This document shows, one piece after another, positions 4,174 to 41,183 of a stretch of DNA of 52,673 bases. Location of the stretch: contig NZ_AGUD01000292.1 in NCBI RefSeq assembly GCF_000240225.1, positions 1 to 52,673 of the forward strand, in the 5' to 3' direction. The notes under the pieces were generated by a model. That model was not told where the DNA came from and made no database searches. It worked only from the letters and a program-made list of their open reading frames with translations. The stretch is from Patulibacter medicamentivorans. GTDB taxonomy: Bacteria; Actinomycetota; Thermoleophilia; Solirubrobacterales; Solirubrobacteraceae. A program made the translations under genes and the position numbers. Position 1 is the stretch's first letter. Every line of letters begins with the position of its first letter.

Positions 4174-4234
4174 GCCGGTCGCGGGCGGCCGGCTCGCCGC
4201 CCGGCGCGGCCCGCGCCTCCGACCCGCGGCCACC

Positions 4235-4269
4235 GGACATGATGTCCAGTCACGCTGTGTGACTAGAAT
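4235..4269. promoter_or_regulatory. Two abutting inverted repeats and -10-like box upstream of the ferredoxin reductase gene
   Basis: In the 269-bp gap 4174-4442, GGACAT-G-ATGTCC (4235-4247) is directly followed by AGTCAC-GCTGT-GTGACT (4248-4264). TAGAAT (4264-4269) overlaps the end of the second repeat and resembles a sigma-70-like -10 box. The layout suggests operator(s) over a promoter for the downstream gene. No regulator was recognised. The rest of the gap shows nothing I can name. Confidence 0.4.
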
Positions 4270-4442
4270 CCCCGGCAGCGCCCGCCGCTGCCGACGGTGA
4301 GGACGCGACACCGCCCGGATGTCGGGACGTCGCCACCCACCACTCGGCCGGGGAAGCGCAATTCGTACCATGGAAGTCGGAGGTCGACGGGCGCACCGCC
4401 CCGAACCGGCCTTCCGCCGCTCACCCGATCCGCCGAGGCTCC

Positions 4443-5912: not shown

Positions 5913-7475
5913 GTGCTGCGGGGCGACCGGGCGCGCGGCGCCGATCGCCTGCTGCGGCGCGCCGTCAGCGTGCTGGCCGTGCTGCTGGCGACGGTGGCGG
6001 CCGGCGCCGGCGCGCTGGCCGGCTACGACCGCACGGTGCGGCTGTCGGTCGGCGACGTGCGGCTGTCGGTCGACCCCGGTCACCGCGGCGCGCTCGACCT
6101 CTTCGTGCCGCTCGTCGACTGGGGCGTCCGCTACGACGCGATCCGGCTGCCGGCGCGGCTGCGGATCGACCTGCGGACCGTCGATCGCCAGGCCGCCCAG
6201 CGCGTCGCCGAGGGCGGGAGGATCGACGCCCACGCCGTCCGGTCCGAGGCCCGCGACGCGATCGCCGGCTACCTGCGCGCGCTGATCGCGATCGCCGTGC
6301 TGGCCGCCGCGGCCGGCGGGCTGCTGGTCGCGCTCGCCGTCCGCTCCCGCAACGGCCCGCGCCTGCGCTGGACCGCCGCTACGGCGGTCGCCGCGGCGGC
6401 CCTGGGCGGGGTCCTGCTGGTCGTGCTGCTGCCGCCGCGCGGCCAGCTCGACCGACCGCAGTACTACGCCTTCGGGCCGGACATCCCGCGGGCGCTGGCG
6501 GCGCTCGAGGACGCCCAGCGCTCGTCGGGCGTGCTCGACCAGGAGCTGGACGCGCAGCTGGTCGGGCTGGCGCGGCTGGTGACCGATCCCGCGGCGCGGC
6601 GGCCGCTGACCGACGCGCCGCTGGTCACGATCGCCTCGGACCTGCACAACAACGTGCTGGCGCTGCCGATCCTGAGCCGCGTCGCCGCCGGCGGGCCGGT
6701 GCTGTTCCCCGGCGACCTGACCGATCGCGGCTCGCCGCTCGAGGCCCGGCTGCTGGAGCGGGTGGTCCACGCGGGGCGGCCGTTGGTGTTCGTGACCGGC
6801 AACCACGACTCCGACAGCCTCGCCCGCTCGCTGGCCCGGCGCGGCGCGATCGTGCTCGGCCGCGACGGCCAGCTCGGCGGCGACGGGCGACCGCTACGGC
6901 CGCGGCGGCTGGTCGCGCGGGTGGCCGGGCTGCGGGTGGCCGGCTACGGCGACCCGTTCGTGCGCCTGCGCTCCCAGGGCTACCGCGACCGCTACGTCGA
7001 CGCCGGGCCGACGATCGCCGATCAGGAGGCGTTCGCCACCTGGCTGCGGCCGCTGATCGGCGGCGTCGACATCGTGATGGTCCACGAGCCGGCGCTGCTC
7101 GGCGTGGCCCTGCGCGACCTCCGCGACCATCCGCCGCGGCGGCCGCTGGTCTTCGTCGTCGGCCACACCCACCGGGCCGAGCTGACCCGCCAGGGCGGCG
7201 TGACGGTGGTCAACGGCGGCAGCGTCGGCGCCGGCGGGACCGGCAACCTGGCCGGCGACCCGACCGCGATCGGGATCGCCCGCCTGCTCTACCGGACCAC
7301 CGGCGACCGCTTCCAGCCGCTGGCCGTCGACCTGGTCTCGGTCGATCCCGGCAGCGGCTCCTCGACCGCGCGTCGCGAGCGGCTCGACGTGCCCGCGGCG
7401 GGCGCGCGCAAGGGCCCGGCGGGCGCGAGGGGCCGGACCGCGACCACGGCGGGGCCGGCGCCGCCGGGGCGGTGA
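5913..7475 (+). CDS. Membrane-anchored metallophosphoesterase
   Basis: 520 residues. The N-terminal half has hydrophobic segments near residues 18-38, 116-140 and 153-172. The C-terminal half is a calcineurin-like phosphoesterase with its metal ligands in order: SDLHNN (Asp243, His245), GDLTDRG (Asp268), GNHDSD (Asn297, His298) and GHTH (His418, His420). A two-metal phosphodiesterase or phosphatase held at the membrane is therefore likely; the side of the membrane and the substrate are not clear. The low-complexity Ala/Gly/Arg tail after about residue 485 is probably disordered. GTG at 5913 was chosen; an upstream non-standard start cannot be excluded. Confidence 0.85.
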   Translation: MLRGDRARGADRLLRRAVSVLAVLLATVAAGAGALAGYDRTVRLSVGDVRLSVDPGHRGALDLFVPLVDWGVRYDAIRLPARLRIDLRTVDRQAAQRVAEGGRIDAHAVRSEARDAIAGYLRALIAIAVLAAAAGGLLVALAVRSRNGPRLRWTAATAVAAAALGGVLLVVLLPPRGQLDRPQYYAFGPDIPRALAALEDAQRSSGVLDQELDAQLVGLARLVTDPAARRPLTDAPLVTIASDLHNNVLALPILSRVAAGGPVLFPGDLTDRGSPLEARLLERVVHAGRPLVFVTGNHDSDSLARSLARRGAIVLGRDGQLGGDGRPLRPRRLVARVAGLRVAGYGDPFVRLRSQGYRDRYVDAGPTIADQEAFATWLRPLIGGVDIVMVHEPALLGVALRDLRDHPPRRPLVFVVGHTHRAELTRQGGVTVVNGGSVGAGGTGNLAGDPTAIGIARLLYRTTGDRFQPLAVDLVSVDPGSGSSTARRERLDVPAAGARKGPAGARGRTATTAGPAPPGR

Positions 7476-7527
7476 CGGGCCGGTCGCCCCTTCCGGAGCC
7501 CGCGGCGAGCCAGTAGCGTCGTTGCGC

Positions 7528-8010
7528 ATGGGCACTCCTGGATCCGGCTCGGCCCGCAACCCGATCGGCGGTCCGACCACGGCCGACTCGCCCGAGGCGA
7601 CCGTGGTCCGGGCCTTCCTCGCGTCGCTCGAGCTGCTCGACGTCGATCGCGCCACCGGCCTGGTGGCCCCGGACCTCGTCTACGAGAACGTCTCGCTGCC
7701 GACGATCCACGGCCGCCGCGGCCTCCAGCGCGCGCTGACGACCTTCACCCGGGTGGCCACCGGCTTCGAGGCCCACACCCACCGCCTGGCCGCCAACGGC
7801 CCGGTGGTCCTGACCGAGCGCACCGACGTGATCGAGGTCGGCCGTCTGCGCGTGTCGTTCTGGGTCTGCGGCACGTTCGAGGTCCACCACGGCCAGATCA
7901 CCCTCTGGCGCGACCACTTCGACTGGCTGAACGTGACCGGGGCGGCGCTCCGCGGCGTGCTCGGGGCGGTCCTCCCCGGGCTGCGGGCCGGCGCCCCCGA
8001 GGGCCGCTGA
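7528..8010 (+). CDS. Limonene-1,2-epoxide hydrolase family protein
   Basis: 160 residues from ATG 7528 (a TTG two codons upstream is less likely). The fold is SnoaL/NTF2-like. The family's catalytic triad is intact: Arg98 and Asp100 in TERTDVI, and Asp129 in LWRDHFDW, spaced as in the Rhodococcus enzyme (Arg99, Asp101, Asp132). Such enzymes add water to epoxides in one step. The substrate need not be limonene. It is transcribed toward the terminators at 8027-8090. Confidence 0.88.
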   Translation: MGTPGSGSARNPIGGPTTADSPEATVVRAFLASLELLDVDRATGLVAPDLVYENVSLPTIHGRRGLQRALTTFTRVATGFEAHTHRLAANGPVVLTERTDVIEVGRLRVSFWVCGTFEVHHGQITLWRDHFDWLNVTGAALRGVLGAVLPGLRAGAPEGR

Positions 8011-8026
8011 CCGCCGCGGGACGAGC

Positions 8027-8054
8027 GCGCGGCCCGGACGACGCCGGGCCGCGC
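8027..8054. terminator. Strong GC hairpin between convergent genes
   Basis: Arms GCGCGGCCCGG and CCGGGCCGCGC (11 bp, perfect) around ACGACG. It sits between the + strand epoxide hydrolase gene and the - strand exporter gene. No T-tract follows on either side, as is common in very high-GC actinobacteria. Confidence 0.65.
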
Positions 8055-8070
8055 GTGCTGCGAGGCGCGC

Positions 8071-8090
8071 CGCCCGCCGTGCGGCGGGCG
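8071..8090. terminator. Second GC hairpin between convergent genes
   Basis: CGCCCGCC-GTGC-GGCGGGCG, a perfect 8-bp stem with 4-nt loop, 17 bp beyond the first hairpin. With it, it probably forms a bidirectional terminator. Confidence 0.6.
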
Positions 8091-8107
8091 GCTGTGGGAT
8101 CAGGGGA

Positions 8108-9568
8108 TCAGTGGGCCATCGCCGGCTCGACGGCCGGGTCGATCGCGGGGGCGCCGCCGCGGAGCAGGGTCCCGGTCACGATCGCGCCGACGAGGAAGAT
8201 CCCCGCCGACCACCAGAAGGCCGTCGTGTAGCCGTGGACGGCGGCCTCGGCCATCACCTGCGGGGTGCGGGCACGGCCCTCGGCGAAGCTCGTCGTCGCG
8301 CTCGCCGCCAGCGTGCTGAGCAGCGCCGTGCCGACCGAGCCGCCGACCTGCTGGGCGGTGTTGACCATCGCCGAGGCCACGCCGGCGTCGGAGCGGTCGA
8401 CGCCGAGGGTCGCGGTCGCCATCGCCGGGGCGAAGATCAGGCCCATCCCGACGCCCATCACCAGCAGCCCGGGCAGGACGTGCGCGGCGTAGGAGCTGTC
8501 GGTCCCGAGGCCGGTGAAGTAGATCATCCCGGCGGCGCCGAGCAGCATCCCGGTCGGGACCAGCGGGCGGGCGCCGGTACGCGGGAAGACCTTGGTGCTG
8601 ACGGTCGTCGCCGTGACCATGATCGCCGCGCTGATCGGCAGGAACGCCAGGCCGGTCTCGATCGGCGAGAAGCCCAGCGTCTGCTGCAGGTAGTAGGTGA
8701 GGAACAGGAAGACGCCGAACATCGCCACGCTCGCCAGGCCGAAGGCCAGGTACGACGCGCCGCGCGAGCGATCCAGGACCACGCGCATCGGCAGCAGCGG
8801 GTGCTTGCTGCGCAGCTCGATCAGGACGAAGCCGGCGAGCAGCGCGACGCCGGCGGCCAGGAAGGCGATCGTGCCGCCGTTGCCCCAGCCGTCGGTCTCG
8901 GCGTGCGAGAACCCGTAGACGAGCGAGAACAGGCCGGCCGACGCCGCCACGGTGCCGGGGATGTCCAGGCGCGGGCGCTCCGCGGGGGTCTGCTCGTGCA
9001 GCAGCCGGAAGGCGGCGATCGCGGCCGGCACGGCGAAGAGCAGGTTCACGTAGAGGCTCCAGCGCCACGACAGCCACTCGGTCAGCACGCCGCCGAGCAG
9101 CATGCCGATCGCGGCGCCGGATCCGGCGATCGCGCCGAAGACGCCGAACGCCTTGCCGCGCTCGTCGGGGTCGGTGAAGGTCGTCGACAGCAGGCCGAGG
9201 GCCGCGGGCGCGAGCAGCGCGCCGAAGAGGCCCTGGGCGGCGCGAGCGGCGACGAGCACGCCGAAGCTGCCGGCGGCGCCGCCGACGGCCGAGGCCAGCG
9301 CGAAGCCGAGCAGGCCGACGATGAAGATCCGCTTGCGGCCGATCAGGTCGCCGAGGCGGCCGCCGAGCAGCAGCAGGCTGCCGAACGCCAGCGCGTAGGC
9401 GGTGACGACCCACTGGCGCGAGTCGTCGGAGAAGCCCAGGTCGTGCTGGGCGGAGGGCAGGGCGATGTTCACGATCGTCGCGTCGAGGACGACCATCAGC
9501 TGGGCGATCCCGATGACGGCGAGGATCAGCCAGCGCCGCGCGTGGTGCGGATCTTGGGTGGCAGGCAT
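8108..9568 (-). CDS. DHA2 (EmrB/QacA) family MFS drug exporter
   Basis: 486 residues, about 14 hydrophobic segments, the length and topology of the 14-TMS DHA2 group. Seen: the opening IGIAQLMVVLDATIVNIALP (motif D1, with its Asp), motif A in GGRLGDLIGRKR, and a motif-C-like Gly-rich stretch near GSGAAIGMLLGG. The family exports hydrophobic toxic compounds using the proton gradient. It is divergent from a TetR gene across 146 bp holding two operator-like repeats, the classic repressor/pump arrangement. Confidence 0.93.
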   Translation of the reverse strand: MPATQDPHHARRWLILAVIGIAQLMVVLDATIVNIALPSAQHDLGFSDDSRQWVVTAYALAFGSLLLLGGRLGDLIGRKRIFIVGLLGFALASAVGGAAGSFGVLVAARAAQGLFGALLAPAALGLLSTTFTDPDERGKAFGVFGAIAGSGAAIGMLLGGVLTEWLSWRWSLYVNLLFAVPAAIAAFRLLHEQTPAERPRLDIPGTVAASAGLFSLVYGFSHAETDGWGNGGTIAFLAAGVALLAGFVLIELRSKHPLLPMRVVLDRSRGASYLAFGLASVAMFGVFLFLTYYLQQTLGFSPIETGLAFLPISAAIMVTATTVSTKVFPRTGARPLVPTGMLLGAAGMIYFTGLGTDSSYAAHVLPGLLVMGVGMGLIFAPAMATATLGVDRSDAGVASAMVNTAQQVGGSVGTALLSTLAASATTSFAEGRARTPQVMAEAAVHGYTTAFWWSAGIFLVGAIVTGTLLRGGAPAIDPAVEPAMAH

Positions 9569-9632
9569 GTTGGTGCTCCGGGAGGACTGGTGTCGAGGTG
9601 CTCGCGTGCGGCGTCTGTGGCGCCGCGCACAT

Positions 9633-9655
9633 AAGTGGAGGACGTTCCTCAACTT
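9633..9655. promoter_or_regulatory. Probable TetR operator 1
   Basis: AAGTGGAGGA-CG-T-TCCTCAACTT: arms match at 9 of 10 positions. It lies in the intergenic region of the divergent exporter/TetR pair, nearer the exporter. It shares GGAG and TTCCTC with operator 2; centres are about 45 bp apart. Confidence 0.6.
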
Positions 9656-9677
9656 TTCTTTCGGCACCGTAGCACAC

Positions 9678-9700
9678 AAATGGAGAGCCTTCCTCCGTTT
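9678..9700. promoter_or_regulatory. Probable TetR operator 2
   Basis: AAATGGAGAG-CC-T-TCCTCCGTTT: arms match at about 7 of 10 positions, and the site aligns with operator 1 (AArTGGAG, then TTCCTC). It ends 14 bp before the TetR ATG at 9715, so it would autoregulate the regulator gene. Confidence 0.55.
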
Positions 9701-9714
9701 TGTATGATCCGGTC

Positions 9715-10416
9715 ATGACCGACCTCGGCGATCCCGCCACCGAGCCGCCCGCGACCGCGGGTGCGCCAGCCGAGCGGCCCCTGCGCGCGGACGCCGAGCG
9801 CAACCGCCGGCGGATCCTCCAGGCGGCCCGCGAGGTCTTCACCGAGCAGGGGCTCGGCGTGACGATGGACGACATCGCCAAGCACGCCGGCGTCGGCGTC
9901 GGGACCGTCTACCGCCGCTTCCCGGAGAAGGGCGAGCTGATCGACGCGCTCTTCGAGGAGCGGGTCTCGGAGATCGTCGCGCTCGCCGAGGAGGGACTGA
10001 CGATCGAGGATCCGTGGGAGGGCTTCGTGCACTTCCTGCGCGGCCAGCTCGAGCTGCAGGCCGCCGACCGGGGGCTCAAGGAGCTGCTGATCAGCCACGG
10101 CCACGGCAGCAACCGCGTGACCGCGGCGCGGTCGAGGATCGCCCCGATCGCGATCCAGCTCTTCACCCGCGCGCAGCAGGCGGGCGTGATCCGCGCGGAC
10201 GTCGCCCCGACCGACGTGCCGATGATCGGCATGACGCTCGGCAGCCTCGTCGACTACACCCGCGAGTCGCACCCCGACGCGTGGCGCCGGCTGCTGGCGA
10301 TCGTGCTCGACGGCCTGCGCGTCCAGCCGGAGGTCGGCACGCCGCTTCCGGCCGAGCCGCTGACCTTCGAGCAACTCGACCAGTCGATGGCCTGCTGGAA
10401 GTCCGGCCGGCGCTGA
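9715..10416 (+). CDS. TetR family repressor, probable regulator of the adjacent exporter
   Basis: 233 residues from ATG 9715. The helix-turn-helix is clear: RNRRRILQAAREVFTEQGL, then TMDDIAKHAGVGVGTVYRRFPEKGELIDALF. The C-terminal domain resembles the TetR_C group found in many actinobacterial regulators (ALAEEG...DPWEGFVHFLRGQLELQAADRGL). Position and the two shared operators point to ligand-relieved repression of the DHA2 exporter and of itself. Confidence 0.92.
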   Translation: MTDLGDPATEPPATAGAPAERPLRADAERNRRRILQAAREVFTEQGLGVTMDDIAKHAGVGVGTVYRRFPEKGELIDALFEERVSEIVALAEEGLTIEDPWEGFVHFLRGQLELQAADRGLKELLISHGHGSNRVTAARSRIAPIAIQLFTRAQQAGVIRADVAPTDVPMIGMTLGSLVDYTRESHPDAWRRLLAIVLDGLRVQPEVGTPLPAEPLTFEQLDQSMACWKSGRR

Positions 10417-10442
10417 GTCGCGCCGACCGGACCCGCAGCCGG

Positions 10443-12650
10443 CTAGAGCGCCGCGATCGCCGCGTTCAGCGTGGCGCTCGGCCGCATCGCCGCGTCCGCC
10501 TTGGCGCGGTCGACGAAGTAGTAGCCGCCGAGGTCGACCGGCTGGCCCTGGACCCCGTTCAGCTCGGCCACGATCTGCTCCTCGGCCGCGGCCAGCGTCT
10601 CGGCCAGCGGCGCGAAGCGGGCGGCCAGGGCCGGGTCCTCGGTCTGCGCCGCCAGCTCCTGCGCCCAGTAGAGCGCCAGGTAGAAGTGGCTGCCGCGGTT
10701 GTCGATCGTGCCCAGCTTGCGGCCCGGCGAGCGATCCTGGTCGAGGAACGTCGCGGTCGCGCGGTCGAGCGCGTCGGCGAGCACCTTCGCCCCCGGCCGG
10801 CCCGCCTGCTCGGCGTACTTCTCGAGCGCCGGCACCAGGGCGAAGAACTCGCCGAGGCTGTCCCAGCGCAGGTAGCCCTCCTGGACCAGCTGCTGAACGT
10901 GCTTGGGCGCCGACCCGCCGGCGCCGGTCTCGAACAGGCCGCCGCCGGCGATCAGCGGGACGATCGAGAGCATCTTGGCGCTCGTGCCGACCTCGAGGAT
11001 CGGGAAGAGGTCGGTGTTGTAGTCGCGCAGGACGTTGCCGGTGACCGAGATCGTGTTCAGGCCCTGGCGCAGCCGCTCCAGCGAGAGCGCGGTGGCGTCG
11101 GCCGGGGCGAGGATCCGGATGTCGAGGCCGTCGGTGTCGTGGTCGCCCAGGTAGGCCTCGACCTTCGCGATCAGCTCGGTGTCGTGCGCGCGGGCGCGGT
11201 CGAGCCAGAAGATCGCCGGGTCGCCGCTCGCACGGGCGCGGGTGACGGCCAGCTTGACCCAGTCGCGGATCGGCACGTCCTTGGTCTGCGTGCCGCGCCA
11301 GATGTCGCCGGCGGCGACCTCGTGCTCGAGCAGCGTCTCGCCAGCGGCGTTCACGACCCGGACCGTGCCCGCGGCGGGGATCTCGAAGGTCTTGTCGTGG
11401 CTGCCGTACTCCTGCGCGGCCTGGGCCATCAGGCCGACGTTCGGAACGGTGCCGATCGTGGCCGGGTCGAGCGGGCCGTTGGCCTTGACGTCCTCGACGA
11501 CCGTCTCGTAGACGCCCGCGTAGGAGGAGTCGGGGATCACGATCAGCGTGTCGTCCTCCTCGCCCTGCGGACCCCAGAGGCGGCCGCCGTTGCGGATCAG
11601 GGCAGGCAGCGAGGCGTCGACGATCACGTCGCTGGGGACGTGGAGGTTCGTGATCCCCTTGTCGGAGTTGACGTAGGAGAGCCGCGGGCCGTCGGCGATC
11701 GCCTGCTCGAAGGCGGCCTTGATCTCGGCGCCGTTGGGCAGCGCGTCGAGGCCGGGCAGGATCGTGCCGAGGCCGTCGTTGGCCGACAGGCCGGCCGCCG
11801 CGAGGTCGTCCCCGTAGCGCGCGAAGACGTCGGCGAAGAACGCCTTGACCGCGTGGCCGAAGATGATCGGGTCGGAGACCTTCATCATCGTCGCCTTCAG
11901 GTGGATCGACCAGAGCACGCCCTCGGCCTTGGCCGCGGCGACGGTCTCTTTCAGGAACGCCTGCAGCGCCGCGACCTCGAGCACCGTGCCGTCGACGATC
12001 TCGCCGGCGAGCACCGGCAGCGACGGCTTCAGGACCTGCGTCTCGCCGTCGGCGGTGACGAGCTCGATCCGCAGCGTGTCGTCGGCGGCGAGCACGACCG
12101 ACTTCTCGTTGTGGCGGAAGTCGTGGTCGCCGAGGCTGGTGACCACGGTCTTCGACCCATCGGCGAACGGCTTGTTCACGTGCGGGTGCTTCTTCGCGTA
12201 GGCCTTGACGGACGCGGGGGCGCGGCGGTCGGAGTTGCCCTGGCGGAGGACCGGGTTGACGGCGCTGCCCTTGACCGCGTCGTAGGCGGCGCGGGCGGCC
12301 TTCTGCTCGTCGGTCTGCGGGTCCTCGGGGTAGTCCGGGACCGCGTAGCCGTCGTCCTGCAGCTCCTTGATCGCGGCCTTCAGCTGCGGGATCGACGCGC
12401 TGACGTTCGGCAGCTTGATGATGTTCGCGTCCGGCGTCTTGGCCAGCTCGCCGAGCTCGGCGAGGGCGTCGGGGACGCGCTGCTGCTCGCTCAGGCGGTC
12501 GGGGAACTGGGCGAGGATCCGCCCGGCCAGCGAGATGTCCCGCGTCTCGACGTCGACGCCGGCCGCCCCGGCGAACGCCTCGACGATCGGCAGGAACGAG
12601 TGCGTCGCGAGTGCGGGCGCCTCGTCGGTGTAGGTGTAGATGACCTTCAT
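10443..12650 (-). CDS. icd: Monomeric NADP-dependent isocitrate dehydrogenase
   Basis: 735 residues, the usual length of the single-chain IDH type, which has no close sequence similarity to dimeric IDH. It converts isocitrate to 2-oxoglutarate and CO2, making NADPH in the TCA cycle. Recognised by the N-terminal [37 protein letters not shown], the [16 protein letters not shown] region and the C-terminal [11 protein letters not shown] near the end. It stands alone on this strand, and no clear ribosome site precedes ATG 12650. Confidence 0.97.
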
Positions 12651-12867
12651 GTGGCTGTCGGCCTGCTTCGCTTCGTGGTAGGAGCGACCGGCCCGGCCAG
12701 CCGCGTTCCGGCGAGCAGGGTCCGATGCGCGAGCGACACGCTATCTGCTGCGGTCCGCCGGTCGCGGTGCACGCGGCGGGAGCGCCCGTCGAGCGGCGAT
12801 CTCTTTGGGGTGCACTCGCGGGCCGCTCCCCGATGTAGGGGATGCGCCGAGCGGGGAGCCTGGGTGC
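12651..12867. promoter_or_regulatory. Divergent intergenic region between icd and a secreted-protein gene
   Basis: 217 bp with promoters for both directions expected but no confident hexamers. One inverted repeat, GCTCCCC ... GGGGAGC (about 12824-12858), lies just before the secreted-protein start; its right arm also serves as a ribosome-binding site (GGGGAG), so it could hide it. Confidence 0.3.
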
Positions 12868-13596
12868 ATGAGAAGCCTGCTCCTGCTCGCGTCGCTCGTC
12901 GGCGCCGCGGCCGTCGCCCAGCCGGCCGCGGCCGCGACCTTCGCCAACCGCCCAGTCACCTTCAAGGTCTCCGGATCCCAGAAGACGACCTGGAAGGCCG
13001 TCCCGGTCGCCGACCCGGGCTGCCAGAACAAGCTCGGCGGCGAGCGCGGCAGCGGCACCGAGACGATCTCGTTCTCGCACGCCCGCGCGCTCAAGGGCAC
13101 GATCGTCGGCTCCGGCAGCAGCTGGGGCCTGTGGGTCCGCGACAAGCGCGGCCGCCAGACCTCGACCCTGCCGATCTCGGGCACGATCGATCGCCAGGGC
13201 GGCGGCGTCACCGTCGTCTGCGGCGAGGACCGGCCGGACACCAGCGGCGGCTGCGTCGGCCGGCGCACCTTCGACGCCCAGGCATCGGTCCAGTTCCTGA
13301 CCGGCCGCCGGACGACCTTCAGCGACGACACCGTGCTGGGCACGTCGCAGCTCTACCCCGACTGCCGCTGGGTCTGGGACGGGATGACCGTGCGGACCGG
13401 CAACGTCCTGCTGAACGTCGGCACGGGCAGGTTCGACCCCAAGCGCCTGGCCAGCTCCAAGTCCTCCCTGACCCTCGTCGGCCGCGACGAGGCCCGCTGC
13501 GAGGACGAGCCCGACCCGACGCCCGGCGTCACCTGCACCACGGTCACCGACTGGCGCGTGACGCTGTACCCGGCGGGGAAGAAGCGCAGGCGCTGA
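12868..13596 (+). CDS. Secreted protein of unknown function
   Basis: 242 residues. ATG 12868 gives a signal peptide (MRSLLLLASLVGAAAV, cleavage near AAAA-T) preceded by GGGGAG. The mature part has six cysteines (in DPGCQ, VVCGE, GGCVG, PDCRW, ARCED, VTCTT), consistent with three disulphides outside the cell, and a basic KKRRR end. No enzymatic motif was recognised. It is not obviously linked to neighbours. Confidence 0.75.
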   Translation: MRSLLLLASLVGAAAVAQPAAAATFANRPVTFKVSGSQKTTWKAVPVADPGCQNKLGGERGSGTETISFSHARALKGTIVGSGSSWGLWVRDKRGRQTSTLPISGTIDRQGGGVTVVCGEDRPDTSGGCVGRRTFDAQASVQFLTGRRTTFSDDTVLGTSQLYPDCRWVWDGMTVRTGNVLLNVGTGRFDPKRLASSKSSLTLVGRDEARCEDEPDPTPGVTCTTVTDWRVTLYPAGKKRRR

Positions 13597-13618
13597 GCCG
13601 AACGAGCCGGCGGGGCGG

Positions 13619-14356
13619 TCACCGCGTCCCGTCGAGCAGCGAGCGGCGCTGCTCGAACTCCTCCTGATCGAGCTCGCCGCGCGCGAACCGCTGCTGGAGG
13701 ATCTCGAGCGGCGTGGCGGCGCTGCGCGGGCGCCACGGGCGCCACAGCACGACGGCGACCACCGCGATCAGGACGAGCAGGCCCATGAAGATCGCCATCG
13801 CGGTGCCGCGCCCATCCCAGCCGTCGCCGCCCGCGCGGTGCCCCCACATCCGTCCGGGGCCGTAGCTCCCGCCCATCATCGTCCCGCGGGAGCCGTCACC
13901 GGAGGCGCCCATCATGCCCACGCCCATCATCCCGATCGCCGCGCCGAGTCCCGCCGGCGCACGGCCGGTGGCGCAGCCGGCGAAGCGCCGGCCCATGTAG
14001 ACGTGCGCCCGCTGCTCGCCGGCGCTGCCCATCATCGCCCGCATCTGGCGGTTCATCGCCTCGTGCGAGGCCGCGGACCCAAGCATCCGCTCCATCACGT
14101 ACTCGCCGATCCGGTCGAAGTCGTCGGTCGTCAGCGACGAGCACGTCGCCCTGCCGTCCTGCACGCGGGCGAGCAGCTGCGCGCCCTGCTGCGCCTCGGT
14201 GGCCGCGCTCGCACGCGGTGCGACGGCGAGGGCGGCGAGGACGACCACCACCGCGACCCGGATCGCCAGCCGGACGGCCCCGGGGCGCCAGCGACGGTCG
14301 CCGACCGCGATCGGCGACCCGGCGGTGGCTGCCATCAGCTGTCGCGTGCCCCTCAT
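13619..14356 (-). CDS. Membrane protein with C-terminal SHOCT domain
   Basis: 245 residues from ATG 14356. Hydrophobic segments lie near residues 30-48 and in FMGLLVLIAVVAVVLW (about 185-202), with a Met/Gly-rich middle (MMGVGMMGASG). The C-terminus, ATPLEILQQRFARGELDQEEFEQRRSLL, is a textbook SHOCT (short C-terminal) domain. The exported central part has two cysteines (TCSSLT, GCATG). Function unknown; SHOCT domains are small oligomerisation or regulatory modules. Last host gene before the prophage. Confidence 0.85.
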   Translation of the reverse strand: MRGTRQLMAATAGSPIAVGDRRWRPGAVRLAIRVAVVVVLAALAVAPRASAATEAQQGAQLLARVQDGRATCSSLTTDDFDRIGEYVMERMLGSAASHEAMNRQMRAMMGSAGEQRAHVYMGRRFAGCATGRAPAGLGAAIGMMGVGMMGASGDGSRGTMMGGSYGPGRMWGHRAGGDGWDGRGTAMAIFMGLLVLIAVVAVVLWRPWRPRSAATPLEILQQRFARGELDQEEFEQRRSLLDGTR

Positions 14357-14494
14357 CGGACCGACCCTAGGCCCGGCGGCACCGCCCGCCAACCGTACGC
14401 GGCGCGGGCCGGGGTCCGTGCGAACTACCGGTGAGCCCTGCCCCACGACCGCCCCACGACCGGAGGAGATCGTGCAGAACGACGAAAGCGCCGA

Positions 14495-14513
14495 GGACAC
14501 GGATCCCGTGTCC
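14495..14513 (-). terminator. Hairpin terminator of the interrupted tRNA-Thr gene
   Basis: GGACACGG-ATC-CCGTGTCC, a perfect 8-bp stem, 12 bp beyond the 3' end of the tRNA remnant and read on the minus strand. It belongs to the original host tRNA transcription unit. It would also stop leftward host transcription from entering the prophage. Confidence 0.6.
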
Positions 14514-14525
14514 CCGACGCTCGCA

Positions 14526-14566
14526 AGCCCTCTGCCGGACTCGAACCGGCGACCCCTTCCTTACCA
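14526..14566 (-). other. attL: 3' remnant of tRNA-Thr(GGT), prophage left junction
   Basis: On the minus strand the sequence gives the tRNA 3' half: loop T33, anticodon GGT, AA, GGAAG (anticodon stem 3' arm), variable GGGTC, T arm GCCGG / TTCGAGT / CCGGC, acceptor AGAGGGC and discriminator T. CCA is not encoded. The 5' half (D arm, acceptor 5' strand, CTTCC) is absent: beyond 14566 the sequence does not continue as a tRNA. This is what integration into a tRNA gene leaves at the end distal to the reconstituted gene. The intact copy should lie at attR, right of the window. The exact core cannot be fixed without attR. Confidence 0.85.
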
Positions 14567-15033
14567 TGGTTCGCCAGGAAGAACCGGAGGGTGTCGGGGA
14601 GGGCGCCGGCAGCGACGAAACGCCTGCAAACAAGCCGAACGGCGACAGCGACGACGACCCGCCGCAACCCGCCGAATCGCCCCGCAACCAGACCGCAGGG
14701 ACCGGAAACGGACCGGAGCCGATCGACCTGCTGTCGGTCGCGCAAGCCGCCCGATCGGCCGCCGCGGCCAACCGGCAGTTGGCCCAGGCGCTGCACCGCT
14801 TCGACGCGTCCGGCGTCGTGACGTCCGTCGCCGCCACGGACGTCGACCGGCGCTACCACGACGCGATCGAGCTGGCGCGCGACGAGCTGACGGGCGGCCG
14901 CTACATCGACGGCGACCTCGCTACCGCCGCGGTCGACGAGCACCCCGGCGCCCAGGCCGCCCTCGACGTCCTCAACAACGCCCTCGCCGGCCGACCCCTC
15001 GCCGCCGTCCAGGAGGGCCGGGGCGATGCCTGA
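14566..15033 (+). CDS. Prophage protein of unknown function starting inside attL
   Basis: 155 residues. The only convincing start is ATG 14566, whose A is the complement of tRNA T33, so the reading frame opens at the tRNA/phage junction. No ribosome site lies upstream (the preceding bases are the antisense of the tRNA anticodon arm). Residues 1-50 are acidic, Gly/Pro/Asn-rich and probably disordered. Residues 50-155 look helical (LLSVAQAARSAAAANRQLAQAL). It overlaps the next gene by 8 bp. Function unknown; first gene of the replication block. Confidence 0.6.
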   Translation: MVRQEEPEGVGEGAGSDETPANKPNGDSDDDPPQPAESPRNQTAGTGNGPEPIDLLSVAQAARSAAAANRQLAQALHRFDASGVVTSVAATDVDRRYHDAIELARDELTGGRYIDGDLATAAVDEHPGAQAALDVLNNALAGRPLAAVQEGRGDA

Positions 15034-15409
15034 GTTCCGCTGGAGCCCGGAGGCGATGGGGCAGGCGACCAGCGCGGTCGCCGCGGCGCGCCAGGCCGGC
15101 CGGGACGACGAGACCACAGCCCGCGAGGTCGTCGCCGCGTTGACGAAGGACACGCCGGCCTCGAACTTCGCAGTCGGAACGCTGCTCCAGAGCTTCGAGC
15201 TCGTCATCGTTACCGGAAGCGACACTGTCGGCGCGCCCGGGGCGGTCGTCGCACGCGCCCTTCCTGGGACCGCCGACGCGTTCGAGGTCGTCGGGCACTA
15301 CGTCGATCTGAGCTTCGGCCACGCGAGCGGTCGTCGCTGGACCAAGCGCGTCGCCGTTAGTGGCATCGCCGCGCCGAGCGGTGCGTCCGACGGAGGCGAG
15401 AGCGCATGA
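15026..15409 (+). CDS. Prophage protein of unknown function
   Basis: 127 residues, ATG 15026 overlapping the previous gene. Helical N-terminus (about 1-45) then a beta-rich part (FELVIVTGSDTV...FEVVGHYVDLSF). No motif recognised. Part of the tightly overlapped + strand block 14,566-18,469. Confidence 0.65.
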   Translation: MPEFRWSPEAMGQATSAVAAARQAGRDDETTAREVVAALTKDTPASNFAVGTLLQSFELVIVTGSDTVGAPGAVVARALPGTADAFEVVGHYVDLSFGHASGRRWTKRVAVSGIAAPSGASDGGESA

Positions 15410-15891
15410 CGATCGCTGAGATGGTCTGCCGGTACGAGGCGGGCGAGTCGTCCGCCTCGATCGGCGCGGACGCGTTCCTCCACGAGGGCGTCGTGCGGGA
15501 CCGGCTCCGCGCCGCTGGCGTGCGGATCCGGCCGCGCGGCGGCACGGGTGGTACCCCGCCGCTGTCGCAGGAGGAGTACCGCCGCACCGTCGCGCTGGAG
15601 CGCGACCTGGGCACTGCGAGGGCCGCCCGCGTGCTGGGCATCTCCCCCAGCCAGGTCCGCTGGCGCCTCGGCCAGGGCGGCCACGCGGCGTCCAACTCGA
15701 TGCTCCACGCGCGCCCGGCGATCCCGGACGGCTTCGAGGACGTCGAGGCCGCCGCACGGCGGCGCGGCATCTCCGCGATCCGGCTCCGGCAGCGCTGCCG
15801 CGACGGCCGCGAGCCGGACGCCACCCGCGAGGAGCGCTGGCCGACCCGCTGGCTGTTCCCGATCCCCGACCACGCCAGGAGCGCCGCATGA
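15406..15891 (+). CDS. Small protein with repeated helix-turn-helix-like segments
   Basis: 161 residues, overlapping its upstream neighbour (ATGA). Three stretches look like HTH units: residues about 8-38 (ESSASIGADAFLHEGVVRDRL), 58-88 (RDLGTARAARVLGISPSQVRWRL) and 115-133 (AARRRGISAIRLRQR). Likely DNA-binding, perhaps in control of or at the origin of the replication block. This is inference from pattern only; no family assigned. Confidence 0.65.
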   Translation: MTIAEMVCRYEAGESSASIGADAFLHEGVVRDRLRAAGVRIRPRGGTGGTPPLSQEEYRRTVALERDLGTARAARVLGISPSQVRWRLGQGGHAASNSMLHARPAIPDGFEDVEAAARRRGISAIRLRQRCRDGREPDATREERWPTRWLFPIPDHARSAA

Positions 15892-16139
15892 GCCTCCCCG
15901 CCACCGCGCGCGCCGTGATGCTCGGCGTGCGTGACCTCGACGAGCGCGACGGCCGCGGCGCGGCCTGGGACGAGGCAACGCTCCTCGTCGCCGCCAGCCA
16001 CCACACCGCAGCCGGCCGCAAGGCCACCACGAAGACGCTCGACGGCCTCGGCCGCCGGTGCCTGATCCACCGCCGTCAGTCCGACGGCCGCTACGTACTC
16101 ACGACCGCCGGCCGCGTCCGGCTGAGAGAAGGACTCTGA
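15888..16139 (+). CDS. Small winged-helix-like protein
   Basis: 83 residues; ATG overlaps the previous stop. Sequence pattern (helical core, KTLDGLGRRCLIHRRQ, then GRYVLTTAGRVRLREGL) resembles a winged helix with its beta-hairpin wing near the C-terminus, like PadR/MarR-type small DNA-binding modules. Its TGA shares a base with the ATG of the initiator gene, so it is probably coupled to it. Confidence 0.6.
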   Translation: MSLPATARAVMLGVRDLDERDGRGAAWDEATLLVAASHHTAAGRKATTKTLDGLGRRCLIHRRQSDGRYVLTTAGRVRLREGL

Positions 16140-17302
16140 TGGGCTGGGCCAAGTTCGACGACAGGTTCTCCGAGCACCGCAAGACGCGGCGTTTGTGGCG
16201 CACCGCGCCGGCCGCCGTCGGGCTCCTGACGATGGCGATCACCTACAGCGCCGCGCACGAGACCGACGGTGTCATCGACCGCGACTGGTTCGAGGAGCAC
16301 TGCATCCTCGCCCAGCTCGACGCCGACGCCACGATCGCCGCACTGGTCGACGTCGGGTTCCTCGAGCAGCTCGACGAGGAGACCCTGCAGGTCCACGACT
16401 ACCTCGACTATCAGCCCTCGCGCGAGAAGGAGCAGCAGCGCCGCGCGGCCGAAGCCGACCGCAAGGCCCGCGGCCGCGACGCCCAGAAGAAGGGCCGCCG
16501 CGGCACCAGTCCAGGCGGACACGACGACCCGTCCGGCGGGACTCCGGCCGGACACGATCCGGACAGGCCGCGGACTCCGCCGGACGTCCGACCGGAGTCC
16601 AGTGGTCCCGACCCGACCCGACCCGACCCGAGTAGGGCGGCTACCGCCGCCGCCTCGCACGCGGACGCGCACGAGGCGGCCGGCGATCCGCCGCCCGGCG
16701 GCGGTGGCGGCGACCTCCCGGTCCCGATGGCCTGGGCCCCTGCCCGGCAGGCCCTCGCTCGGTGCTGGCCCTCCGACTCGATCGAGCAGCACCGCCGTGG
16801 GATCTGCGACGAGCTGCGCAAGGAGGGCGACCGCGACCGGCCGCCGATCGACTGGGGACGCCTCGGCGAGCAGCTCGAGCAGCTGATCGCCGACGGGACG
16901 TGCCAGGCGATCACGCCGCTCGAGGCGCTGCGGTTCGGCCTCGGCCAGAGACGCCCGCCGTTCGCCGGCGACCGGCGCCGCACCAGCCGCCCCGCCACCA
17001 CCGGGCAGCCCAAGGCGGTTGCGCTGCCGGCCGAGGCTGCGGCGGCGGCCGGCTTCTGGCCGGCGATCCTGGCCGACGCCAGGGCCCGAATCGGCGACGC
17101 CGCCTGGGACACCTGGCTGTCCGTCATGCGACCGATCGCGGTCGACGCCGACGTCGTCACGGTCACCTGCCCCAGCCACGCCGCGTCGTGGATCGCCGAC
17201 CGCCTCGTCCCGACGCTGGAGGCCGCGGCGACCCGCACCGGCTACGAGCTGCGATTCGTCCGGCCCGAACACGTCGCGACCGCCACGGCGGCGACCGCAT
17301 GA
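16139..17302 (+). CDS. Probable phage replication initiator with DnaA domain I-like C-terminus
   Basis: 387 residues; ATG 16139 with GAGAGAAGGA upstream. Residues 1-105 resemble the winged-helix N-terminus of phage replication proteins (GWAKFDDRFSEHRKTRRLW ... VDVGFLEQLDEETLQVHDYLDYQ). Residues about 110-195 are a charged, Gly/Pro-rich linker with an 11-residue repeat (GHDDPSGGTP / GHDPDRPRTP). The C-terminal part from about residue 300 (FWPAILADARARIGDAAWD, then TWLSVMRPIAV and VTVTCPSHAASWIADRL) matches the pattern of DnaA domain I, which contacts the replicative helicase. No AAA+ ATPase is present. Inferred role: bind the phage origin and recruit host helicase. Confidence 0.7.
   Translation: MGWAKFDDRFSEHRKTRRLWRTAPAAVGLLTMAITYSAAHETDGVIDRDWFEEHCILAQLDADATIAALVDVGFLEQLDEETLQVHDYLDYQPSREKEQQRRAAEADRKARGRDAQKKGRRGTSPGGHDDPSGGTPAGHDPDRPRTPPDVRPESSGPDPTRPDPSRAATAAASHADAHEAAGDPPPGGGGGDLPVPMAWAPARQALARCWPSDSIEQHRRGICDELRKEGDRDRPPIDWGRLGEQLEQLIADGTCQAITPLEALRFGLGQRRPPFAGDRRRTSRPATTGQPKAVALPAEAAAAAGFWPAILADARARIGDAAWDTWLSVMRPIAVDADVVTVTCPSHAASWIADRLVPTLEAAATRTGYELRFVRPEHVATATAATA
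16517..16630. other. Origin-like repeat cluster inside the initiator gene
   Basis: Located in the linker-coding part. GGACACGA occurs at 16517 and 16550, and GGACTCCG at 16539 and 16572, both pairs 33 bp apart. CCGGACA occurs at 16548 and 16559. A nested palindrome follows: GGACTCCG (16572-16579), central CGGACGTCCG (16581-16590), CGGAGTCC (16593-16600). Then four ACCCG units run 16611-16630. Lambdoid origins also lie within the initiator gene's linker. The repeats could instead only reflect a repetitive peptide. Confidence 0.4.
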
Positions 17303-17583
17303 GCAGCAACATCGACCGGGTGATCGCCCGAGCGGCGAAGCCCCGGCCGGACCTCCTGCCGGCCGCCGCGCTGCTGACCTGCGGCCAGGTCATGGCCGAC
17401 GGCGCCGACGAGCACGGCGAGCGGTGGCGCAGCCGGACCGCCCGCCACCACGTCAGCTGTGGGCTGCGACACCTGCTGCGGTGGCTCGCTGGCGACCGCG
17501 TCGACCACAGCGGCCACAGCCACCTTGCGCACGCCGCGACCCGACTGCTGATGGCCCTCGACCGAGAGGAGGCCCAGTCGTGA
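17299..17583 (+). CDS. DUF5664-family (dATP/dGTP diphosphohydrolase N-terminal-like) protein
   Basis: 94 residues, ATGA overlap with the initiator. Fits the phage DUF5664 pattern along its length: KPRPDLLPAAAL, a GADEHGERW block, then GLRHLLRWLAGDRVD followed by HSGHSHLAHAATRLLMAL. The His/Asp/Glu set resembles MazG-like metal sites. Family knowledge: this domain is linked to phage hydrolysis of purine deoxynucleoside triphosphates, altering the pool during replication. The usual Trp in KPRWDLLP is Pro here. No PurZ partner is nearby, so no base-substituted genome is implied. Confidence 0.75.
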   Translation: MSSNIDRVIARAAKPRPDLLPAAALLTCGQVMADGADEHGERWRSRTARHHVSCGLRHLLRWLAGDRVDHSGHSHLAHAATRLLMALDREEAQS

Positions 17584-18224
17584 CGCTCGTCGTCCGCCAC
17601 GACCTGCTGACGCTGGAGGGCTGCCGCCGCGAGGCATGGCGGCTGCTCGGCCGGATCGCGACCCAGGTCACCGAGGCATCCGGCCAGAGCATCGGCGGCC
17701 GCGTCAGCGCTGGCAAGCCCGAGAGCCGCCCGCCGACCGGGCCGCGCGGCGACACCCTCGAAGCGACGTGGCTCACCCGGTTCCACGCATCGTGGGACGA
17801 CGTCGTCGGGCTGCGAACCGACGTCCTCGTCTGCGGCGCCGTCTACGCCCGCCAGCTAGGGCAGCTCGACAGCTGGGCGCGCGAGCACTTGCTGACCGAC
17901 GCCGGGTTCTCGGTCCAGCACGACGCCGACCTCGTCCTCGACCGCGTCATCGACTGCTACCCCGGCTGGGCTCCCGAGGAGGTCGCCGCCGTCGAGACCG
18001 CGATCGGCTCCCGCTGCGACGCGCTCTGGGTCCGCCGCGCCCGCCGCAGCTCCGCACGGCACCCCGAGACCGGCGTCCCGGTCCCCGTCGGCCAGCACCG
18101 CATCGCCGAGGTCATCGCGCTCAACGCCGCCGGCCGGTCGCAGCGCTCGATCGCCCAAGAGGTAGGCGCCAGCAAGACGACCGTCCAACGGATCCTCGAC
18201 GAACACCTCAGCAAGGCCAGCTGA
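17580..18224 (+). CDS. Helix-turn-helix protein of the replication block
   Basis: 214 residues, GTG start overlapping the previous stop. The C-terminus has an HTH like that of resolvase/Trp-repressor-type proteins: HRIAEVIALNAAGRSQRSIAQEVGASKTTVQRILDEH (residues about 175-211). The central part is helical with Trp/Asp-rich stretches (CYPGWAPEEVAAVE). Similar proteins in actinophages are unassigned. Possible transcription factor or terminase-like regulator; function not claimed. Confidence 0.65.
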   Translation: MTLVVRHDLLTLEGCRREAWRLLGRIATQVTEASGQSIGGRVSAGKPESRPPTGPRGDTLEATWLTRFHASWDDVVGLRTDVLVCGAVYARQLGQLDSWAREHLLTDAGFSVQHDADLVLDRVIDCYPGWAPEEVAAVETAIGSRCDALWVRRARRSSARHPETGVPVPVGQHRIAEVIALNAAGRSQRSIAQEVGASKTTVQRILDEHLSKAS

Positions 18225-18469
18225 TGCCGAAGCACGCCTTCGTCCTGCTCGACGACCTGATCCGCTCCGGTGGCCTGTACCCCGGAGCGACGATCAGGAT
18301 CAATGGTCGCGTCAGCACGGTCGAGCGAATCGGCTGGTCCCACGACCGCATCTCCGTCAACTTCGCCGATGGATCGTCGTTGTTCCGGATCGAGGCCGGA
18401 CCGGACTCCGCCGTCGCCGCCGCGAGAGCGACATCAGCGTTCGTCGATGTGACGGTGACCCTCCGGTGA
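18224..18469 (+). CDS. Small prophage protein of unknown function
   Basis: 81 residues; ATG shares a base with the previous TGA. Beta-rich (GATIRINGRVSTVERIGWSHDRISVNFADG), suggesting a small SH3/KOW-like barrel. Last gene of the left operon; followed by a 328-bp noncoding stretch. Confidence 0.6.
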   Translation: MPKHAFVLLDDLIRSGGLYPGATIRINGRVSTVERIGWSHDRISVNFADGSSLFRIEAGPDSAVAAARATSAFVDVTVTLR

Positions 18470-18500
18470 CCACCGCTCGGCGCTCGGTCACAGGCGCGAG

Positions 18501-18530
18501 TTGACATCCGACGAGTGGTCCAGGTACGCT
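18501..18530 (+). promoter_or_regulatory. Strong sigma-70-type promoter candidate
   Basis: TTGACA (18501-18506), 18-bp spacer, TACGCT (18525-18530). The -35 box is a perfect consensus, rare in this GC context. It would drive the region with hairpins 18541-18600 and then the HNH/packaging genes. Confidence 0.55.
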
Positions 18531-18536
18531 TTTTAC

Positions 18537-18600
18537 CGACGGACGAACTGCGTCCAGAATCCGAACGCGGCGCCTACGGCACAGGCGCCGTTTCGCGTTC
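18537..18600 (+). ncRNA. Candidate structured phage RNA or leader
   Basis: Starting about 7 nt after the -10 box: hairpin GGACG-AACTG-CGTCC (18541-18555), then a long hairpin with outer arms GAACGC (18563-18568) / GCGTTC (18595-18600) and inner arms GGCGCC (18569-18574) / GGCGCC (18584-18589), with a 5-nt bulge GTTTC. It could be a small RNA, or an attenuator in the leader of the packaging operon. No known RNA family or tRNA fits. Confidence 0.35.
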
Positions 18601-18797
18601 TAGGCCCCGCCCTACCAGGGCAACTCGCCCGTCTCCTCCCCCGCATCCCCGTGACCGGGTCGCGGTCGATCGATGCGCCCCTCTCGCCCCGCGGCGAGCC
18701 ATGCACAGACCCCGCGCGACTCCTACGCCGGGCCGGGGCGGCAGCGCGCGCCCAGCGCCCGCGTCACCGTCGACCGCGGCCCGTTCGCGCCACCACC

Positions 18798-19136
18798 ATG
18801 TCCCGCGCGCCGTCCATCTGCTCGCAGCCCGGCTGCCCCGAGGACGCCACCGGCAGTGGACGCTGCGCAGAGCACCAACGCCGGGCGTGGGCCAACCGCT
18901 CCCCGTCCAGCATCGCCCTCAACGGCGCAGGCCGAGCGGCCCACCGCCGCGCCCGCCGCGCCGCTGCCCGCCGCGCGGCGGGACGGTGCGAGGAGTGCGG
19001 CGAGCCGAGCGACGACCTCCAGCTGCACCACCACCACCCGATCAGCCAGGGCGGAGCGATCGTCCAGCCGAACGGCCGCATGCTCTGCACGGCCTGCCAC
19101 CTCGTGGCCGACCGCGACACCGGCGCCCGACGATGA
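18798..19136 (+). CDS. HNH endonuclease
   Basis: 112 residues from ATG 18798. Zinc-type HNH: CEEC (64-67), the LHHHHPISQGG core (76-86), N92, and CTACH (97-101). An additional N-terminal Cys/His cluster (CSQPGC, GRCAEH) looks like a second small zinc site. In many phages an HNH next to terminase and cos is needed for genome packaging. The gene sits about 1.1 kb upstream of the terminase genes here. Confidence 0.9.
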   Translation: MSRAPSICSQPGCPEDATGSGRCAEHQRRAWANRSPSSIALNGAGRAAHRRARRAAARRAAGRCEECGEPSDDLQLHHHHPISQGGAIVQPNGRMLCTACHLVADRDTGARR

Positions 19137-19372
19137 CCGCCACCCGCAACAGCTGGCACGTGCTGGAGATGGCGACCCACGTCGCGCTGGTCCCTGACTA
19201 CGAGGACGGCCACGTGCTCGCGGCTTGGTGCTGGTGCCAGCCGACCGTCGAGACGGCTAACCCCGAGACCGGCCAGGCGTATGCGATCCCGGTGATCGCG
19301 CACCGCGACATCGGCGAGCGCACCGGAGGCCGTCCGATCACCGACGTCGACCAGCCCGATGACGAGACCTGA
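19133..19372 (+). CDS. Small prophage protein of unknown function
   Basis: 79 residues, ATGA overlap with the HNH gene. Aromatic/Cys-rich centre (LAAWCWCQPTVET), acidic C-terminus (DVDQPDDET). No family recognised. Confidence 0.6.
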   Translation: MTATRNSWHVLEMATHVALVPDYEDGHVLAAWCWCQPTVETANPETGQAYAIPVIAHRDIGERTGGRPITDVDQPDDET

Positions 19373-39082: not shown

Positions 39083-39693
39083 GCGTCCCCGCCCCGGCGC
39101 TCCGCGCGCTCGCCGAGCTGGAGCCGCTGACCCGCGACCCCACCACCGCCGACCTGCTGACGCGGCTGCTGTCCTCGGCGCTCGTCGGCGAGGTGCCGCT
39201 GTGGTCGATCGCCGAGGACCCCGGCGCGGCGCAGTGGCTGCACCCCGACAACGCGCCGCCCGAGTGGCTGGCGCTGCTCGCCGAGCTCGTCGGCGGCCGG
39301 CTCTCGCCCACGATGAGCGACGCCCAGCGCCGGACCGAGGTCCGGACCCCGTCCGGGTGGGCCGCAGGACTCCCCTCCACGCTCGTCACGACCGCTCGCG
39401 CGCACATGCAGGGCCTCGCCCGGGTCCAGGTCCGCCTCCGCTACGACCCCGCCCTTGGCGCCGGCACCGACGCTCCGGGTCATCTCCAGGTCCGTGTTGT
39501 CGCCGCCGACGTGCTGCCCGGCCACGAGGATGCGCTGGAGCGCGACGTGCTCGCGCAGGTGCCGGCGTGGTTGATCGGTCACGTCGAGATCACCGACGAG
39601 GCCGACTACGACCAGGTCCAGGCGACCTACCCCACCTACGACGACCTGCTCGCCAGCGTCGCCGACTACGACGACCTGCTCGACGCCGCCTAG
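39079..39693 (+). CDS. Baseplate protein, gpI-like
   Basis: 204 residues, GTG start overlapping the J gene. Located where gpI lies and similar in pattern (SPTMSDAQRRTEVRTPSGWAAGLPSTLVTTARAHMQGL). It would join wedge to fibres. The C-terminus has a small YDDLLASVADYDDLLDAA repeat. Confidence 0.75.
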   Translation: MSVPAPALRALAELEPLTRDPTTADLLTRLLSSALVGEVPLWSIAEDPGAAQWLHPDNAPPEWLALLAELVGGRLSPTMSDAQRRTEVRTPSGWAAGLPSTLVTTARAHMQGLARVQVRLRYDPALGAGTDAPGHLQVRVVAADVLPGHEDALERDVLAQVPAWLIGHVEITDEADYDQVQATYPTYDDLLASVADYDDLLDAA

Positions 39694-39702
39694 GAGCCGC
39701 TG

Positions 39703-40932: not shown

Positions 40933-40943
40933 AGGCCCGAACC

Positions 40944-41183
40944 ATGCCCACCAGCCCCGTCCTAACCCGGGCCTGGCTGCTCGCCACCCTCGACGAGACC
41001 GGCCGCCGCCTCGCCCTCGCCGCCGACGCTGGCGTCGCCACCCCCGCCCTCACCTGGACCGATCAGGACCAGGTCCAGATCAGCGTTCGCGGCCACGGCA
41101 CCGGCGTCACGCTCGAGGCCACCCACCCCGACGGGCGCGTAGGCCCACTGACCTTCCCCGCCGGCTGGACCACCACGCCCTAG
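40944..41183 (+). CDS. Small tail-fibre-region protein
   Basis: 79 residues. Beta-rich C-terminus (DQVQISVRGHGTGVTLEATHPDGRVGPLTF). No family recognised. Located between two fibre genes. Confidence 0.55.
   Translation: MPTSPVLTRAWLLATLDETGRRLALAADAGVATPALTWTDQDQVQISVRGHGTGVTLEATHPDGRVGPLTFPAGWTTTP

Follow-up and report, generated by a model that had tools for sequence, protein, structure and literature searches.

Patulibacter medicamentivorans (GCF_000240225.1), whose draft genome comprises 353 contigs, carries a temperate tailed prophage on contig C62 (NZ_AGUD01000292.1), and the window analysed here is the whole of this contig, 52,673 nt in length. Our subject is the relation between two gene blocks of this prophage, a replication block at 14566-18469 and an early operon at 46,751-52,673, and the phage attachment site (attP) that would lie between them in the circular phage. 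From their arrangement we consider it probable, with some reserve, that integration cuts one operon inside a gene containing attP, and that the early promoter is reconnected with the replication genes upon excision.

A sequence-only reading of this DNA had placed DNA-binding proteins, an initiator and a nucleotide hydrolase in the first block, an early operon with the excisionase (xis) and integrase (int) genes in the second, and both blocks in rightward orientation. The orientation is borne out by our gene calls, and the named functions are recovered by the Pfam and PHROG profile searches from which all family assignments come, with several helix-turn-helix (HTH) matches falling under the Pfam cut-offs. 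Genes were called with a small codon-score caller, and one gene at ~48500-48805 was added by hand, filling a 304-bp hole in the caller output.

The replication block, read on the plus strand, opens with the distal part of an attP-spanning gene (14566-15033), followed by a small gene with no family assigned (15026-15409, gene call), an HTH protein (15406-15891; HTH_58 E 0.0029, under the Pfam cut-off) that is 35% identical to a prophage protein of a relative, G124, and a small, possibly winged-helix protein (15888-16139) with a weak match only (HVO_A0261_N E 0.012). The replication initiation protein comes next (16139-17302; phrog_2447 E 1.4e-56, DnaA_N 2.8e-5 just under cut-off), then a protein with a dATP/dGTP diphosphohydrolase N-terminal domain (17299-17583; PF18909 8.9e-17), a resolvase-like HTH protein (17580-18224; HTH_23 8.2e-5 and HTH_7 1.1e-4, under cut-offs) and a small last gene (18224-18469, gene call). 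The next gene follows after a gap of 328 bp, and the top promoter-like site that the relaxed scan gave for the plus strand of the prophage (TTGACA-18-TACGCT, 18501-18530) probably serves that next transcription unit.

The early operon begins beside a divergent HTH repressor gene on the minus strand (46092-46658; phrog_8 1.3e-8, phrog_4 5e-7). Between this gene and the Cro-like gene that comes first in the operon (46742-46978, plus strand, starting at ATG 46742 or 46751) lies a promoter-like site found by the relaxed scan (TTGACG-17-CAAGAT, 46715-46743, plus strand), embedded in a near-perfect inverted repeat, TTGACGGGACA / TTGACAGGACA. Two inverted copies of TTGAC(G/A)GGACA overlap the site (46715-46740), and elsewhere in the window the motif has one copy only, with a single mismatch (4253, minus strand, host DNA). 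The inverted repeat at 46715-46740 is the probable operator of the divergent repressor. Further along the plus strand are a phrog_210 gene (49173-50141, 4.2e-63), 40% identical to a gene of the G124 prophage and presumably of the DUF2303 type, the excisionase gene xis (50422-50811; phrog_66 7.8e-14) and the tyrosine integrase gene int (50808-52064; phrog_1 1.8e-46).

The prophage ends and the tRNA-Thr core

The left prophage end, attL, is a 45-bp core (14525-14569, minus strand) that forms the 3' half of a tRNA-Thr(GGT) gene. Its single other match in the genome is on contig C88, within an intact tRNA-Thr(GGT) gene (C88:18638-18710) to whose 3' part it is identical. C62 stops within the prophage, inside an Ala-rich repeat gene whose 5' part (52061-52673, plus strand) is cut by the contig end. 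C88 carries 3026 bp past the core with phage-type genes, one of them encoding a DUF5131 protein (PF07505, 1e-83), all of which, by the gene calls, lie on the strand reading rightward in window orientation, and its end is an Ala-Ala-Glu repeat frame, matching in kind the Ala-rich frame at the C62 end. The break between C62 and C88 is thus explained by the repeat frame in which both end, and the probable 3' part of the repeat gene starts C88 in reverse complement. The repeat gene breaks the assembly inside the prophage at window 52600-52673 and at the C88 end (L004 5000-5238); the relative G127 has a complete homologue with the same head, Ala-rich repeat and tail (40% over 145 residues).

Host genes of the C62 side and of the C88 side sit together around tRNA-Thr in four of the five relatives fetched for both sides (G123, G124, G126 and G128), the exception being G122, with C88-side host genes only; G127 entered this comparison with a 4.8-kb contig carrying the C88 side, and G125 stood outside it. 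Since the host genes of both contigs are neighbours in these relatives, C62 and C88 flank one insertion and, judged from sequence, the missing right prophage end lies on C88. A 19-bp direct repeat, GGACCGGAAACGGACCGGA, at 14699-14717 (plus strand) recurs at the opposite phage end, where it precedes the core by 82 bp, and is a probable integrase arm site. The two blocks therefore do lie at opposite ends of the prophage, as the sequence-only reading had it, the ends being confirmed by the 45-bp core, C88 and the host flanks in relatives. Tyrosine integrase, excisionase, repressor, a tRNA attachment core and host flanks joined in relatives mark the element as a temperate tailed prophage, whose structural genes come from gene calls only.

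The same reading had set the replication block behind the tRNA terminator, which is what we find. Just left of attL, the host tRNA-Thr terminator hairpin (14486-14522, minus strand) has a 17-bp stem and a fold energy of -33.4 kcal/mol over 14470-14524; compared with 200 shuffles, this gives z -4.4, and none of the 200 folds as well. In the prophage this terminator stands between host DNA and the replication block. A phage-borne tRNA-Thr terminator at the right end (attR) was plausible by eye and was dropped, its fold being no better than that of shuffles (z 0.83). In the integrated state (L002:1546-1625), tRNA-Thr is parted from its strong native terminator, and since the phage DNA that follows it folds no better than shuffles, transcription of the tRNA may continue, in antisense, into the final part of the early operon.

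The same DNA is present in IMG/VR as IMGVR_UViG_2537561813_000002 (37267 bp), a 13500-bp piece of which matches window 39173-52672 exactly. By coordinates, the start of this provirus record falls near 15406, some 0.9 kb past attL on the phage side, and the C88 end is missing from it; trimmed in this way, the record hides the gene that spans the attachment site. The free attP had no match in IMG/VR, and the xis-int DNA had none among phage records.

The attP-spanning gene and the joined run

The last gene of the C88 phage part starts with GTG at L004:2594, with AAGGAG upstream, and runs for 127 open codons up to the core. The same frame stays open through the core and, counted from there, continues for 168 codons on the window side before it stops at 15033. 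All frames of the core are free of stops, so such an open join would arise by chance about once in three cases. The codon score is stronger evidence for this frame than the open join alone: on the phage sides it is the best frame in every stretch measured. Its score per codon is +0.25 to +0.49 in the first three stretches on the N-side, falls to -0.03 over the 91 nt beside the core, where it nearly ties with a frame containing a stop, is +0.09 within the core and reaches +0.22 to +0.46 on the far side. With one frame crossing the tRNA core, integration would cut not only the operon but also this gene. The predicted circle form has about 296 residues and ends G-R-G-D-A before the stop at 15031-15033, unlike an ssrA-like tag (...AA); the prophage form of the N-terminal part has 149 residues and ends seven residues past the core methionine, in the host tRNA half. 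The sequence-only reading had begun the block, and its first gene, at 14566, but a true start there is unlikely: the ATG lies inside the core, has no ribosome-binding (Shine-Dalgarno) site and belongs to a frame that is already open when it arrives from the opposite phage end.

Read from the early promoter, the circle would carry the Cro-like gene at 46742, then eight genes (the DUF2303-type gene and xis among them), int with its stop at 52064, the repeat gene, six genes from C88 that close with the one holding attP, and the replication block to 18469. This joined run measures about 12.9 kb plus the repeat, and genes overlap at 20 of its 23 junctions, the remaining three having spacings of 0, 2 and 65 bp. 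From the int stop at 52064 to attP there are at least 609 + 3026 bp plus the repeat, with genes reading rightward. The earlier proposal that the early block runs through attP into the second thus stands as to its gene-tight course, but int is not next to attP, since C88 adds 3026 bp.

This layout suggests the following mechanism. In the circle, a repressor-controlled promoter at ~46715 would read cro, the DUF2303-type gene, xis, int, the DUF5131 region, the attP gene and the initiator block. Integration into tRNA-Thr would cut the operon inside the attP gene, such that the early half keeps the promoter at one prophage end and the replication half comes to lie, promoterless, at the opposite end behind the host tRNA terminator. 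In the silent prophage the repressor would block the early promoter and no transcript would reach the replication block. Upon induction, the early half would be transcribed in place, Xis and Int would be made and the phage would excise; once the circle is closed, the same transcript would run through attP into the initiator, and a replication start inside the chromosome would thereby be prevented. The sequence itself shows the two ends, the common core, the joined host flanks in relatives, the direction and spacing of the genes and the frame that passes through the core; full-length transcription, the lack of a promoter of the block's own and, hence, excision before replication are the parts of this scheme that we infer.

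Related prophages and the weighing of explanations

Four prophages were compared within the genus: the present one and those of G123, G124 and G127. In G124, int at its end of the prophage (contig C2) is separated from a tRNA-Ala core by about 3.1 kb of genes reading rightward. At the opposite end (contig C290) the identical 48-bp core is immediately followed by an operon that includes an initiator (phrog_1408, 6.3e-22). The pairing of C2 and C290 is suggested by the 48-bp core and complementary gene content, and the empty site of this prophage was not found in the two relatives fetched. A frame with an ATG start overlapping the previous stop is open across the core; it carries no coding signal in the 59 nt that precede the core or in the 100 nt that follow it. 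The single-contig genome of G123 has its prophage between 89-bp repeats, with int ending 8 bp before one of them. It is complete (L059-L062, G123:C1:4480199-4528087), and its attachment repeat lies in tRNA-Val and includes a tRNA-terminator-like hairpin; we regard it as a good comparator for the model. On a G127 contig (L068, G127:C611, reverse complement 6423-19184), repressor, Cro-like gene, repeat-gene homologue and initiator (45% over 111 residues) follow one another uncut, and the run closes with a large serine recombinase encoded on the opposite strand. This uncut order is what would be expected if the genes form one operon that attP divides here, and in that sense it supports the proposed split; it looks as though the present prophage had received an int-att module within an operon that other phages keep whole. 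The end-to-end geometry is thus seen in three of the four prophages of the genus, and a gene split is clear in one and weak in one.

In Arthrobacter phage Bridgette, another carrier of the DUF2303-type gene, both integrases precede the repressor and the primase/polymerase follows the early genes, an order that shows the split not to be general to phages with this gene. The initiator PHROG search in the family gave six matches outside the own genome (G123, G127, G017, G088, G113 and G118), of which G123 and G127 were examined closely and the other four as gene lists only. In G118, int runs into tRNA-Thr (L066, G118:C600, reverse complement 4219-5456), and the attachment core may lie in the int 3' end; no stretch of at least 16 nt of that tRNA-Thr was found on the initiator contig of G118 that would make it a further case. 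Among the other family integrases, the integrase match is followed within 200 bp by a tRNA in at least 7 of 20 regions (L079, L084, L089, L090, L093, L094 and L095).

Promoters were sought with one stricter and one relaxed consensus, both recognising sigma-70-type sites only. The relaxed scan found no promoter-like site on the plus strand at 13500-18500 or in the C88 part. Terminator scans found nothing at attP on the phage side or at 14400-18800; over 45000-52673 the sole plus-strand match ends at 45303, ahead of the early promoter, and of two terminator-like sites on the early strand of C88, one lies in host DNA beyond the tRNA. From int to attP the scan covers the assembled sequence on either side of the repeat between C62 and C88. 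The shared core, the matching repeat frames, the host flanks, the gene-tight run, the open frame with its codon score, the 19-bp repeats and the geometry of G123 and G124 together point to an operon that is cut by integration and restored by excision.

A number of observations weigh against this account, and several of them at the same time favour a replication block with a promoter of its own outside the sigma-70 consensus, or one served by read-through or an activator, in which case the gene order would merely reflect where the int-att module landed and integration would barely matter for expression. In simulated sequences, 0.4 relaxed promoter-like sites are expected in the block and 66% have none, which makes the missing site weak evidence, and a negative from scans confined to sigma-70-type sites says little; the stricter scan, which found no site in any of three regions, misses the early promoter as well. 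The earlier claim that the block has no visible promoter therefore holds for the scans, but we dropped promoter absence as proof. The early half has a further relaxed promoter-like site at 48070. A terminator between int and attP had been named beforehand as a finding that would tell against the scheme, and one weak terminator-like site, inside the DUF5131 gene, does occur there, although none is seen at attP itself. Transcription is deduced from gene order, across a repeat at which the assembly breaks between C62 and C88. In G123, attP is intergenic and a non-coding stretch of 307 bp separates the second repeat from the replication operon, so that its independent transcription is possible; in G127, early genes and initiator are unseparated, and related phages evidently do without the separation. 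In this sense, silencing by position fits the layout of the present prophage, but the arrangement is not general. Besides, excisionase-type proteins of Pf4 and P2 activate the replication gene instead (PMC7379572). Against a promoter of the block's own, the gene calls leave no intergenic room for one in 14570-18469, and attP lies inside a gene, leaving the first replication-side frame without a good start. We consider this explanation unlikely, albeit the strongest of the alternatives.

The split gene might itself be the switch, its circle form and its shorter prophage form acting differently, as in integration-dependent immunity. In its favour are a frame that crosses the core and has coding signal to either side of it, the second and weaker case in G124 and the precedent of the phage BPs repressor (PMC4557955); the G124 frame, however, lacks coding signal around its core, and immunity is more likely to depend on a different gene, the intact repressor at 46092-46658. 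For the N-terminal part there is no Pfam match and there are weak PHROG matches only (E 0.23 and 0.32), and among proteins called in the phage regions of G118, G123 and G124 only its 20-residue tRNA-encoded stretch matched. We rate a switch of this kind as improbable. A winged helix in the N-terminal part is supported neither by families nor by comparison with 15888-16136, and was rejected. Single-protein queries of IMG/VR, which reach close relatives only, gave no relatives for either half. Across 146 family genomes, the distal part has two weak matches outside the own genome, the G124 one being a stand-alone gene, and the proximal part has four weak matches, three of them with an internal stop. 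It would be more surprising still, and we think it very improbable, if C88 belonged to something other than this prophage, two elements being joined by chance in the attP-spanning frame. Such a join would draw on a draft assembly with an open repeat gap and on the one-in-three chance allowed by the stop-free core, but it would have to produce the exact core, the matching repeat gene, the arm repeats, a single gene orientation and host flanks that are neighbours in relatives, and a C88 gene is 61% identical to a gene after int in the G124 prophage.

The operon cut by integration remains our preferred reading, and it invites a wider and more tentative one. Possibly, though we regard this as doubtful, some tailed phages of one actinobacterial genus carry attP in a gene in the middle of an early-replication operon, such that excision reconnects the initiator and makes the full-length split protein, enforcing an excise-first order in which replication within the chromosome and lateral transduction would be structurally impossible.

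Comparison with known systems

Our comparison drew on open-licence papers, and in that literature, by titles and the starts of abstracts among the matches listed, we found no tailed-phage replication operon split by attP. An attP within a gene is already known from the BPs-type repressors, and the joining of functions by excision from Tn916. In phage P2, the split-operon control of int (Bertani 1970) is reportedly a case in which the attachment site divides a phage operon and a gene is controlled by the integration state. In that system it is reportedly int that is affected, whereas here it would be the replication genes.

The coupling described for XisF4 of Pf4 and Cox of P2 (PMC7379572) also ties excision to expression of the replication initiator, but through a promoter-activating protein rather than joined DNA ends. 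In mycobacteriophage BPs and its relatives (PMC4557955, PMC9934374), attP lies in frame inside the repressor gene, integration truncates the product and the short form is active; the same sources describe a case in M. abscessus in which the attP core overlaps tRNA-Thr and lies in frame in a phage gene. The likeness is that of an attP core in frame inside a phage gene, whose product integration truncates. The split gene there is the repressor, whereas in the present prophage attP lies outside the repressor gene, in an early-operon gene beside the replication block, and the likely repressor at 46092-46658 is intact. The ssrA-like tag (...AA) that closes the long viral form in BPs-type systems is likewise absent here, where the frame ends G-R-G-D-A.

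Whether a prophage can mobilise the host DNA beside it depends on which comes first, its excision or its replication. Wild-type P22 reportedly replicates before excision (PMC8575938), which allows lateral transduction; the layout described here concerns the same order and predicts the opposite one. The conjugative element (integrative and conjugative element, ICE) Tn916 has transfer and replication genes that are transcribed only after circularisation (Celli and Trieu-Cuot 1998, as cited in PMC6540685 and PMC9956884). In both elements, promoter and replication functions are apart when integrated and would be joined by excision across the attachment junction. Tn916 differs in being conjugative and in that its read-through has been demonstrated by transcripts, while the present case is a tailed-phage early operon with attP inside a gene, read from DNA alone. 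If our reading is correct, the excise-first order would be fixed by DNA topology alone, opposite to that of P22, and the prophage of P. medicamentivorans would represent a phage counterpart of Tn916.

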